Assembly: GCF_013409205.1 (NCBI RefSeq)
Contig: NZ_JACCAE010000001.1
Span: 2,914,001 to 2,978,000 of the forward strand
DNA length: 64,000 bases
Reading direction: 5' to 3'
Origin: Janibacter cremeus
GTDB lineage: Bacteria > Actinomycetota > Actinomycetes > Actinomycetales > Dermatophilaceae
Under the pieces are notes generated by a model. It saw nothing but the letters and a program-made list of their open reading frames with translations. It was not told the origin of the DNA and ran no database searches. The position numbers and the translations under genes are program-made. Below are positions 56,402 through 59,995 of the stretch, piece after piece (the first letter of the stretch is position 1; each line of letters opens with the position of its first letter).

Positions 56402-57175
56402 TTGGGCACGTATGTCGAGGACCCGCAGTTCGAGGCCCTGAAGCGATGGGCGAAGACGTCTGACTTTCCTGATCCGGTCCGTTGGGGTGAGGTCGAGGCC
56501 GTGATCCTGGCGGATCCACCACCTGCGCGGGACCAGATGGACCCGATGCTGAGGAAGAACGACCGGGTGCGCAGTCTGGTCGGATACCTCATCGCGCTCC
56601 CGATGGTGGTGGTGACGTTTGGCTCGCCGCTCGTCGTGCTCGGATTCGTCATATCCCGCGTCGTGCTCGACCGGAGCGTTCCGGAGGACAGCTGGTGGTT
56701 CGTCCTTCTGCGGATCGAGTTCTTCGCTGCGATCGTCATCTCCGTCTTTCCCATCCTGATGTGGTGGACCACCAGGCGGCGGGCACGCATGGATCTCCTC
56801 CTCAGCGGTGGGAGCAGCGCGGCTTCCTTCGCGAGCGTCGGGCTGCTGTTCACGACGCCTCGGGCTGGTGGGTGGTCGGCGTTCGCGTTCTATGCCCTGA
56901 TCGCCGCGGTGGCCGGGCTGGTGGTCTTCGTCTTCATGCTCGTGAAGGCTCGACCAGGGATCAGGCGCCCGTGGCGAGAGCGGTGGCGGGAGATCACGCC
57001 GGAGGAGAAGTGGTACCGGGGATCGCGCGCCGGGGTCCTGGAGGAACTGGCGCAGCGGGGACTGGTCAGCACATCGGACACCACGGCCATGACGGGGATG
57101 CCACTGCGCACGTGGCACGAGCTCGACGAGAACTCACCGCAGGCGTGGGTAGCGAGAGACCGCCCGGGCGCCTGA
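56402..57175 (+). CDS. Uncharacterised four-helix membrane protein
   Basis: 257 residues: a soluble N-terminus (GTYVEDPQFEALKRWAKTSDF), four membrane segments in two pairs between about 60 and 185, and a basic then polar C-terminus ending near LRTWHELDENSPQAW. No family recognised. The TTG at 56402 is chosen because GGAGGA lies 3 nt upstream; a GTG at 56348 would extend it by 18 residues. Its lower G+C than its neighbours hints at more recent acquisition. Confidence 0.62.
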   Translation: MGTYVEDPQFEALKRWAKTSDFPDPVRWGEVEAVILADPPPARDQMDPMLRKNDRVRSLVGYLIALPMVVVTFGSPLVVLGFVISRVVLDRSVPEDSWWFVLLRIEFFAAIVISVFPILMWWTTRRRARMDLLLSGGSSAASFASVGLLFTTPRAGGWSAFAFYALIAAVAGLVVFVFMLVKARPGIRRPWRERWREITPEEKWYRGSRAGVLEELAQRGLVSTSDTTAMTGMPLRTWHELDENSPQAWVARDRPGA

Positions 57176-57202
57176 GACATCTGCCCGACACCGGGCCGGG
57201 AC

Positions 57203-57826
57203 TCACCGCACCCCGGCGACCCGGTACTGGATCGAGATACGTGGACCGACGGCGGCGCTCGTCTTGGGAACGGAGTGGTCCCACGTGCGCTGGCAGGCCC
57301 CACCCATGACGGCCAGGTCACCGTGGCCGAGTGACAGTCGCTGGGAGCGACCACCGTCGCGGGGTCGGAAGGTCAGGTGGCGGGCCGAGCCGAGCGAGAC
57401 GATCGCGACCATGGTGTCGGCGGTGCGACTGCGGCCGATGCGGTCCCCGTGCCAGGCCACCGAGTCGGAGCCGTCGCGGTAGAGGCACAGTCCGGCGGTG
57501 ACGAAGGGCTCGCCGAGCTCCGGCGCGTAGTGCTCGGTCAGCCGCTCGCGCATGTCCACGAGCATCGGGTGGGGCAGCGCCTCGCCCGCGGAGTAGAAGC
57601 AGGTCAGCCGCGGCACGTCGACGACCGAGTCGTACATGGTGCGCCGCTCGGAGCGCCACGGCACCTCGTGCAGCAGCGTCTCGAGGACGTCGTCGGCGCC
57701 GCATGCCCAGCCGGGCACCTGATCGACCCACGCGCTGCCGTCGAGGTAGCGACGATGGCGCGACTGCAGGTCCCCGAGGGTCGGGGCGTCGGCGGTGTCG
57801 AAGAGCGAGGACTGGAGCGCCTGCAT
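57203..57826 (-). CDS. alkB: AlkB-like Fe(II)/2-oxoglutarate dioxygenase
   Basis: 207 residues. Oxidative demethylation of alkylated bases: iron ligands H126 and D128 (AWHGDRIGR) and H184 (TWDHSVP), 2-oxoglutarate arginines R196 and R202 (RISIQYR). The ATG at 57826 has AGGAG 8 nt upstream, and that ribosome site is the last chromosomal sequence before the IS110 element. The LexA box at 59146-59161 would have been its promoter before the insertion, so expression is probably lost or now driven from the IS. Confidence 0.9.
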   Translation of the reverse strand: MQALQSSLFDTADAPTLGDLQSRHRRYLDGSAWVDQVPGWACGADDVLETLLHEVPWRSERRTMYDSVVDVPRLTCFYSAGEALPHPMLVDMRERLTEHYAPELGEPFVTAGLCLYRDGSDSVAWHGDRIGRSRTADTMVAIVSLGSARHLTFRPRDGGRSQRLSLGHGDLAVMGGACQRTWDHSVPKTSAAVGPRISIQYRVAGVR

Positions 57827-57840
57827 GCGTTACTCCTATG

Positions 57841-58893
57841 TCAAGCTGCGGCCGCGAGTCCAGTCGCGGGTGCTGCCTGGTCGGTGGTCAGGTGGTGGAA
57901 GACGATGCGGGCGAGGCGTCGTTTCAGGCAACGCAGAGCTTCGCGGTTGGACATGCCTTCGGCCTTCTTCTTCTCGTAGTACGTCTTGCCCAGGGAGCCG
58001 TCGAGGCGGACCTGGGTGATGGCGATGCGGTGCAGCGCGGCATTGAGCTGACGGTTGCCCGAGCGGGTCATGCGCACCCGCCCAGCGGTATTGCCCGACC
58101 AGACCGGGATCGGCGCCACGCCGGCATGCCGGGCGAACGCGGCCTCGCTGTGGAAGCGGGCCGCGCCGGCGGACTCACCGACGAGCTTCGCGGCGGTCAA
58201 CGGCCCGCAACCGGGCATCGCCATCAGCGTGGGCGCGGCCTGCTCGGTCAGCTCGGTGATGCGCTTGGCATAGGCCTTGGCGCGGGCGGTCATGGTGATG
58301 ATGTCGTCGAGCTCGTCCAACGCGAGCTCGGCCACGACACCCTGCAGGGTGGCCAGCCAGACGCGCAGGGCCTGCTGGTGCTTGGTCAGGTCCAACGAGC
58401 GGGCCTTCGGAGCGTGGTCCGGGTCGAGCTCGTGCACCCGCCACAACAGCGAGTTGATCGTCGCGGTGCGTTGCGCGACAAGCGTTTCCCGGCGATCGAC
58501 CAACAACTTCAGCTCACGTGAAGCCTCGTCATGCGAAGCCGTCGGAAGGCTCGGTTCACGCAGGTATGCACGGGCCACGGCCAGCGCGTCGATCGGGTCG
58601 GACTTGCCGCGGGTACGCGCCACGCGCCGCTGCTCGGCCATCATCTTCGGCGGCACCCGCACCACCTGCTGACCGCTGGCCAGCAGGTCCCGCTCCAGAC
58701 GGGCGGACAGGTGCCGGCAATCCTCGATCGCCCACACGACCTCCTCGCCGAACTCCTCCCGGGCCCACCTGAGCGCCTTGTGGTGACCGGCCGTGACCGC
58801 CTCGACGGTGACCTGCCCGATCTGTTTGCCGACTTGGTCAACGGCGACGAACGTGTGCGTGCGCTTGTGGACATCGGCTCCAACAACAACCAT
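57841..58893 (-). CDS. IS110-family DEDD transposase/recombinase
   Basis: 350 residues, apparently intact. The N-terminal RuvC-like DEDD domain has D7 (GADVHKRTH), E57 (WAIEDCR), D99 and D102 (KSDPIDALAVARA); the C-terminal Tnp_IS116/IS110/IS902 domain has MPGCGPLTAAKLVGE and the serine motif TRSGNRQLN. The ATG at 58893 follows AAGGAGG. These enzymes are guided by a bridge RNA made from the element's non-coding end. Confidence 0.93.
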   Translation of the reverse strand: MVVVGADVHKRTHTFVAVDQVGKQIGQVTVEAVTAGHHKALRWAREEFGEEVVWAIEDCRHLSARLERDLLASGQQVVRVPPKMMAEQRRVARTRGKSDPIDALAVARAYLREPSLPTASHDEASRELKLLVDRRETLVAQRTATINSLLWRVHELDPDHAPKARSLDLTKHQQALRVWLATLQGVVAELALDELDDIITMTARAKAYAKRITELTEQAAPTLMAMPGCGPLTAAKLVGESAGAARFHSEAAFARHAGVAPIPVWSGNTAGRVRMTRSGNRQLNAALHRIAITQVRLDGSLGKTYYEKKKAEGMSNREALRCLKRRLARIVFHHLTTDQAAPATGLAAAA

Positions 58894-59129
58894 GGTGGTT
58901 GCCTCCTTCACTGACGAGTGACTGGACGGTTGGGCCGGTCGGCGGACACATCTCAGTGGGGGCGATGCCACGCTCCTATCAAGTCACGCCGGCCGGTCCT
59001 TCACACCAAGTGTCGACAGAACGCATGCTCATCAGCCCGAAGGCGACAGGGAGCGTAAGAGCCAGACACCCAGTGCTCAGGATCCAACCACCGCCAGCAA
59101 CAGCGGCGCCATCACCCTGACACTGACAT
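58894..59129 (-). ncRNA. Candidate bridge-RNA region of the IS110 element
   Basis: Non-coding stretch directly 5' of the transposase, with lower G+C than the genes around it. IS110-group elements encode a bridge RNA of about 170-180 nt here. Seen on the minus strand: TACGCTC (59057-59051), identical to the flank beyond the insertion (59137-59131), and GATAGGAG (58980-58973), identical to the rebuilt alkB target. Both could be target guides. RNA boundaries and folding were not determined. Confidence 0.35.
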
Positions 59130-59145
59130 CGAGCGTAGCAGCGCA

Positions 59146-59161
59146 TCGAACGGGTGTTCGA
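59146..59161. promoter_or_regulatory. Second LexA (SOS) box, between the IS110 element and recO
   Basis: TCGAACGGGTGTTCGA, an exact match to TCGAAC-N4-GTTCGA with palindromic arms. On the minus strand TACGCT (59137-59132) lies 8 bp downstream and would be the -10 of alkB. On the plus strand it is 60 bp before recO, whose own -10-like GACAAT is at 59210-59215. It probably served alkB; control of recO is possible. Confidence 0.82.
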
Positions 59162-59221
59162 CAAGCGGCGCACCGGCGTGGGGGTGCGTGTCGCGCGAGG
59201 ACGAAGGGGGACAATGCAGGG

Positions 59222-59995
59222 GTGCCCCTCTACCGCGAGTCCGGGGTCGTGCTGCGCACCCACAAGCTGGGTGAGGCCGACCGGATCATCACCGTGCTCA
59301 CACGCGGCCGCGGCAAGATCCGCACGGTGGCGAAGGGAGTGCGCCGGACCAAGTCGAAGTTCGGCGCCCGCCTCGAGCCGGGGATGCACGTCGACCTCCA
59401 GTGCTACGAGGGGCGCAACCTCGACACCGTGACGCAGACGGAGTCGCTGGACGCCTGGGGCGATGCCCTCGCACGCGACTACCGACGCTGGACCAACGCC
59501 AGCGCCATCCTCGAGACCGCCGATCGGCTCACCGAGGAGCACGAGCCGGCCGTGCAGCAGTACCTGCTCCTGGCCGGAGCGCTGCGCTCCCTCGCGCACG
59601 ACGAGCACGCGCCGGAGCTGGTGCTCGATGCCTATCTGCTGCGTGCCCTCGCGGTCGCCGGGTGGGCGCCGAGCTTCCACGACTGCGCCCGCTGCGGCGA
59701 AGAGGGCCCGCACCGGGCCTTCCACGTCGCCTCCGGTGGGGTCCTGTGCCGCAGCTGCCGGATGCCCGGCTCGTCGGCGCCCGCACCGCAGACGCTCGAT
59801 CTGCTCGCCGCGCTGCTCACCGGTGACTGGGCCAGCGCCGATGACTCCCTCGACCGGCACCGCCGCGAGGGCTCGGGGCTGGCGGCTGCCTTCCTCCAGT
59901 GGCACCTCGAGCGCGGGGTGCTCTCCCTCCGCCATGTTGATCGCAGCGTCGATCGAGACCCTGCCGACCGCACCCAACCGCAGAGGACCGGATGA
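59222..59995 (+). CDS. recO: DNA repair protein RecO
   Basis: 257 residues: an N-terminal OB fold ([25 protein letters not shown]), a helical domain, and the zinc site CARCGEEG ... CRSCR. It loads RecA with RecFR. The GTG at 59222 gives the conserved LYRESGVV start; GACAAT ends 6 nt upstream (leaderless). uppS follows with an ATGA overlap, a standard actinobacterial pair. Confidence 0.94.

Follow-up and report, generated by a model that had tools for sequence, protein, structure and literature searches.

The question raised by this locus is what becomes of alkB when a transposable element separates the gene from what appears to be a LexA-controlled promoter. The window, i.e. the whole stretch of 64,000 nucleotides that was analysed, comprises positions 2914001-2978000 of a 3,307,489-base genome assembled in one contig, and domain searches revealed alkB (minus strand) and recO (plus strand) on either side of an IS110-family transposase (Table 1). 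The original prediction, that an IS110 element had inserted between alkB and an SOS-type promoter, was borne out by 15 congener loci in which the insert is missing. The LexA box beyond the element is a perfect palindrome, and the transposase lies, as predicted, between this box and alkB.

Table 1. Features of the alkB-recO region (positions of the window).
Feature	Coordinates	Strand	Remarks
alkB	57203..57826	-	207 aa, 2OG-Fe(II) oxygenase; PF13532 62.2 bits
GC dinucleotide, right end to alkB ATG	57827..57828	-	G013 versus G006 filled/empty comparison (related copy)
IS110-family element, 1,298 bp	57829..59126	-	ends from copies and empty sites
Right end GCTTGACATAGGAGTAAC	57829..57846	-	conserved in copies
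Transposase, 350 aa from inner ATG	57841..58893	-	PF01548 residues 4-149, PF02371 residues 222-307
Left end with predicted bridge RNA	58949..59126	-	RNAalifold, covariation
Right donor guide, probable, CCCCACTGAGATG	58949..58961	-	CACTGA complementary to left-end TCAGTG; sequence reading, no control
Left donor guide, probable, TTGATAGGAGCG	58971..58982	-	resembles right-end TTGACATAGGAG; sequence reading, no control
Right target guide region GAGCATGCG	59022..59030	-	reverse complement CGCATGCTC; GCATGC in common with alkB start
Left target guide TACGCTCCC	59049..59057	-	7/9 match to -10 flank TACGCTCGA
-10 TACGCT, captured alkB promoter	59132..59137	-	TANNNT at corresponding place in 15/15 congeners
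LexA box TCGAACGGGTGTTCGA	59146..59161		palindrome; box conserved in congeners
recO, divergent neighbour	59222..59995	+	PF02565, PF11967, TIGR00613

The transposase matched DEDD_Tnp_IS110 (91.8 bits), Transposase_20 (78.3 bits) and NCBIfam NF033542 (200.9 bits, cut-off 140), i.e. it has the domains of the IS110 family. The open reading frame listed for it begins at GTG 58971, and the inner ATG is probably the true start. Elsewhere in this genome only one 139-base match to the element (72%) was detected. Copies were found (i) by DNA similarity in 186 genomes of the family, (ii) by protein patterns in genome contigs (16 loci), (iii) in plasmids, and (iv) by way of the right-end motif, which matched 19 of 396 genomes at the level of the order and 22 of 394 at that of the class, and in viral contigs. 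They carry close variants of the left end TCAGTGTCAGGGTG and of the right end GCTTGACATAGGAG-NAAC.

Comparison of copies with empty sites placed the true ends at 57829 and 59126, and not at 57838 and 59129, where the element had first been cut out. Since the ends map to these positions, TAGGAGTAAC (57838-57829) is element sequence. A host origin of TAGGAG/AGGAG, implied by the earlier join (CGATAGGAG with ATG 8 nt later), was rejected: these bases are the right end of the element, and the intact site of congeners consists of a LexA box, TANNNT, 6-7 nt and the start codon. In the window, the right end includes the TGA with which the transposase stops (57843-57841), TTGACA (57844-57839) and AGGAG (57837-57833), and the alkB ATG lies 14 nt past the stop codon and 6 nt past AGGAG. 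Joined ends, as read from their sequence, would form TTGACA, 17 nt and CAGGGT, in which TTGACA may serve as the -35 of the circle.

In the one empty/filled pair available (G006/G013, 98.5% protein identity), the empty site is formed by the two G013 flanks joined, without any target duplication; a 5-bp duplication has been reported for a phage IS110-like element (PMC3706429). The GC that separates the right end from the alkB ATG is probably the host target dinucleotide. Right junctions are mostly GC, TC or CC and the left end is TC, the constancy of the latter partly reflecting the construction of the search. The IS621 core is an identical CT in donor and target, whereas here the first base before the start-codon region is T in the donor and mostly G in the target.

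The search of relatives detected alkB in 39 of 58 genomes, all 15 congeners among them, and recO is divergent to alkB in each of the 15 congener loci. The box adjoins alkB in all 15, and neither a box apart from alkB nor the segment 58980-59145 without the transposase was encountered: the transposase is absent from all 15 loci, and the left end of the element from the full intergenic sequence of the 14 short ones. Fourteen congeners have the exact LexA core CGAACNNNNGTTCG and L018 has a form with one mismatch; the distance from box to alkB is 21-23 nt in the 14 with an exact core. The -10 hexamer TACGCT proposed earlier was correct (59137-59132), and the end of the corresponding TANNNT lies 6 nt (13 congener loci) or 7 nt (two loci) before the alkB start. 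The LexA box probably overlaps the -35 region expected for this hexamer.

The spacing between recO and alkB is 94-102 bp in 14 congeners and 1,198 bp in L008. The latter locus (genome G007) has about 1.1 kb of extra DNA between recO and the LexA box; the box, 21 nt from alkB, and the -10 stay with this gene, and G007 gave no match to element DNA. In L019 (G032) the spacing is 845 bp.

A TANNNT situated some 12 bp ahead of the start is described as a signature of leaderless genes that is frequent in Actinobacteria (PMC3160421), and in M. tuberculosis TANNNT is reported centred 7-12 bp upstream at 73% of primary transcription starts (PMC3898074). The same signature was found at alkB of all 15 congeners. 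Because TANNNT stands 6-7 nt before the start in every one of them, the ancestral alkB looks leaderless, and most simply it was a leaderless gene whose promoter was covered by the LexA box. The conservation of this palindrome over the alkB promoter in relatives is a mark of the SOS regulon, to which alkB looks to belong. The pattern TCGAACNNNNGTTCGA occurs at six places in the 3.3-Mb genome and the reversed control pattern at none. Apart from the box of the window, these comprise one upstream of a gene with LexA_DNA_bind and Peptidase_S24 domains, two upstream of DUF222 genes, and one each upstream of a DUF6504 gene and of a frame that matches no Pfam family. The two DUF222 genes (L254, L256) lie directly 3' of perfect LexA boxes.

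Analysis of the copies revealed a close association with gene starts. With the right-end tails AAAC, TAAC or ATAC, an ATG or GTG is situated exactly 6 nt past AGGAG in 56 of 58 distinct right junctions. With CAAT, CATC or AAAT it was found at that place in 0 of 24, not all of which are established as element ends; two of the 24 have TTG there, two come from viral contigs, and in L093 and L094 (AAAT junctions) a GTG lies one base further on. Seven of the other 27 of the 109 junctions have ATG or GTG at this place (including 3 of 10 with the tail CAAC), and 10 of these junctions, which stem from viral contigs, may match the motif by chance. The frame that follows comprises at least 80 codons in 51 of the 56 cases and is shorter in five. 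Nine of ten hand-picked frames contained a Pfam domain (YrdC, dCMP deaminase, AIRS, NYN, isochorismatase, MoCF, enolase-like, PH, nitroreductase).

A left end with its flank was available for 57 of the 109 distinct right-end junctions, and nine of these, with four mismatches in the left end (L118 and L137 included), were set aside. Guides could be read in 45 of the remaining 48 (unread in L040, L051 and L092), of which 41 fell into the start-site class and four into others, the class being assigned by the right-end tail, independently of the start codon. In 39 of the 41 copies a TANNNT starts 9-13 nt before the left end, a rule satisfied by 2 of 451 windows taken farther upstream in these flanks; the exceptions among the copies are L074 (GAGGAT) and L145 (TANNNT 17 nt away). 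Among the copies set aside, L118 has the hexamer and L137 lacks it; the latter has a start codon in place, followed by an 11-codon frame. When the sites were reconstituted, the spacing from hexamer to start was 6 nt in 27 copies, 7 nt in 10, and 5 and 8 nt in one each.

The same arrangement was observed in empty homologous loci of four other insertions, of which 61 of 66 have a TANNNT 6-8 nt ahead of the start (15/15, 11/13, 19/19 and 16/19, with the filled copy taken out of each tally and, for two of the insertions, the best 20 loci where 29 and 40 genomes had matched). Three of the five misses (L239, L241, L246) have TANNNT and ATG slightly upstream of the aligned start, and two (L206, L208) lack any TANNNT. 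The transposase tree (56 rows) requires five changes between start-site and other placements, with classes set by the start codon, which leaves L088 (ATG one base further) among the others. A more distant IS110 group with the right-end tail CATC (L044, L049, L051, L092, L101) has a different right flank, G.[CG]GA.CTCGACC, common to all five loci, and a left flank, TTTCTTCG.G, common to three.

The left end of the element, non-coding and upstream of the transposase, is predicted to encode a structured RNA. RNAalifold analysis of 31 left ends, aligned by sequence, gave 40 pairs with 1,210 of 1,227 cells paired and double changes in 14 pairs, and the fold of the window strand 59129-58955 has a z of -3.32. 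The Rfam search revealed no family at the gathering score; two matches below it were at chance level and were discarded. In the predicted internal loop, one side carries 9 nt that fit the left flank and the other side the right target guide.

Both guides fit the flanks of the elements that carry them. The left guide matched its own flank at a mean of 7.95 of 9 positions in the 41 copies, which are non-independent (in several genomes 2-4 copies share a guide), as against 5.46 after shuffling (sd 0.18, maximum 6.15 in 10,000); with one copy per distinct left guide (29) the values were 8.07 and 5.47. TANNNT is kept by 28 of these 29 guides, while the three middle bases vary widely. The reverse complement of the right guide contains ATG or GTG mid-stretch in 40 of 40 copies, L172 having been left out of this test since its duplicated left end caused the guide to be misread. 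Two bases before ATG, 27 of 40 right guides agree with their own site, compared with 13.9 after shuffling (0 of 5,000 as high), and one base before it 35 do, compared with 28.5 (1 of 5,000); positions 3' of ATG fit no better than shuffled. The elements are probably placed between a -10 and a start codon because their putative guide RNA spells a bacterial promoter and then a start codon.

Several copies deserve separate mention. L034 and L079, both in G013, have sister transposases but different guides on both the left and the right, and the guides of each copy match the site that it occupies. Both guides are changed in L134, L148 and L173 of G811 (left guide TACAGACAC), which occupy a repeated non-start site, a case of natural retargeting. 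In L172 (G783) and L105 (G341) the left end is partly tandem-duplicated, which gives two copies of a portion of the bridge RNA region.

The placement of the copies, the match of guide to site and the empty sites are thus established, at the level of sequence comparison. We consider it likely that the element belongs to a clade of actinobacterial IS110 elements in which the natural programme of the bridge RNA is for leaderless starts, the promoter being captured and the gene re-led. TANNNT and some 3 nt more would make up the left target guide, the complement of NNATG would be carried by the right one, and the element would recombine into the few bases that separate the host -10 from the start codon, with the transposase co-oriented with the gene. 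Counting from the window -10, TCAGTG has its A at the eighth base, where L004 has the A of ATG. Because this element base (A3) occupies the position of the A of ATG, transcription is expected to start at 59124; RNA polymerase on the captured promoter would begin there and transcribe the bridge RNA and the transposase. The host gene would form the last cistron of the element transcript, translated from the right-end AGGAG and no longer leaderless. At the alkB locus the captured promoter would be LexA-controlled, and transposon and alkB would both rise with DNA damage. The likely outcome here is a damage-induced transposon with alkB as its Shine-Dalgarno-led last cistron.

Related elements that insert elsewhere than at start codons carry AGGAG in their right end as well; it has therefore not evolved solely as a Shine-Dalgarno sequence for host genes, and its use by the host gene may be a by-product. 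A promoter scan of 57000-59400 found nothing and missed the alkB promoter too; for this reason its negative outcome says nothing against a promoter inside the element, and the argument that the captured promoter is its only one was dropped, the scan being uninformative. To a more sweeping formulation we would give even odds: an Actinobacteria-wide clade of RNA-guided transposons with a leaderless-promoter guide whose three free -10 bases diversify and so give access to new genes, in which the promoter is captured in phase with the bridge-RNA start of the element, a Shine-Dalgarno sequence is supplied that lets the gene survive and each copy comes under the regulation of its host gene, here the SOS response.

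The strongest alternative is that the element merely cut alkB off from its SOS promoter, with loss of the damage induction of AlkB, as the original prediction had proposed. A distance of 1.3 kb now separates the promoter and the LexA box from alkB, and other kinds of terminator within the element, or strong polarity, may act on the transcript. However, promoter, element and gene are co-directional, and a scan of the minus strand of 57000-59400 for terminators of the intrinsic type found no such site; the intact promoter reads into the element with the orientation of the transposase and alkB. Moreover, AGGAG stands at its 6-nt distance from the ATG, and alkB is still constrained: its dN/dS is 0.076-0.136 against three congeners and 0.057-0.154 among those three, which indicates no relaxation, although a recent insertion would give the same picture. 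We therefore regard a loss of induction as unlikely and the earlier claim of it as unsupported. It is more likely that alkB was re-led rather than silenced, though the 1.3-kb insert may lower its expression via polarity. The accompanying suggestion, that alkB came under transposon control, holds for half of the relationship: the transposon is more likely to be under LexA control.

The observed distribution of copies might also reflect survivorship, i.e. loose insertion followed by retention of those copies which, lying between promoter and gene, are nearly harmless. Coding sequence is indeed spared, and a frame of at least 80 codons is left in most cases. Against this, guide variants match their own sites base by base, the start-codon offset is fixed, and the related elements L134, L148 and L173, whose guides are changed, occupy other sites, which these guides fit; this explanation appears very improbable. 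Equally remote is the proposal that the LexA box belongs to recO, 60 nt upstream of which it lies in the window, and that the regulation of alkB is untouched: it was rejected in view of the constant distance from box to alkB in the congeners with an exact core and of the gap of about 1.1 kb between recO and the box in L008.

Should the programmed capture of leaderless promoters be confirmed, some natural bridge RNAs would prove to be under selection for recognizing the functional grammar of gene starts. Such capture would explain how integrated IS110 copies are expressed despite their split junction promoter, and how the element enters working genes at little cost. The 29 distinct natural left guides, together with their sites, provide material for studying how IS110 guides are rewritten, and the guide rule TANNNT-N6/7-ATG is an idea that can be tested in other actinobacteria.

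IS110 guides and their reprogramming are already known (PMC11208160, PMC11187229). As described for IS621 (PMC11208160), that system likewise combines an IS110 recombinase with a left-end non-coding RNA, predicted in the present element, carrying left and right target guides, the bottom strand being paired by the left guide and the top strand by the right one. It also has donor guides that fit the ends, of which the present element has probable counterparts by sequence reading. It differs in that the target loop of the present elements encodes a -10 and a start codon, with variants that keep TA...T and ATG/GTG; the term "start codon" does not occur in the main text of that paper. The ISEc21/ISEc11 seekRNA (PMC11187229) resembles the predicted RNA in having its guide in a non-coding region, ISEc21 also inserts without target duplication, and ISMch6 offers a further case of natural redirection; however, the target of ISEc21 is a coding region of the IS3 family and not a promoter or start site. 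Among the titles and abstract openings listed from openly available journal papers, none dealt with IS110 elements whose target is a -10 or a leaderless site. The closest precedent encountered is the Mycobacterium avium subsp. paratuberculosis element IS900, of the IS110 family, with the target motif CATGNNNNNNTCTCCTT (PMC8141618), which can be read on the other strand as a Shine-Dalgarno sequence and start codon, i.e. as aimed at gene starts. In IS900 the left half of the target is the Shine-Dalgarno sequence and not a -10, whereas the present clade appears to target leaderless starts and to carry its own AGGAG. What appears to be new here, as far as these titles and abstract openings show, is a natural guide clade aimed at the -10 and start codon of leaderless genes.
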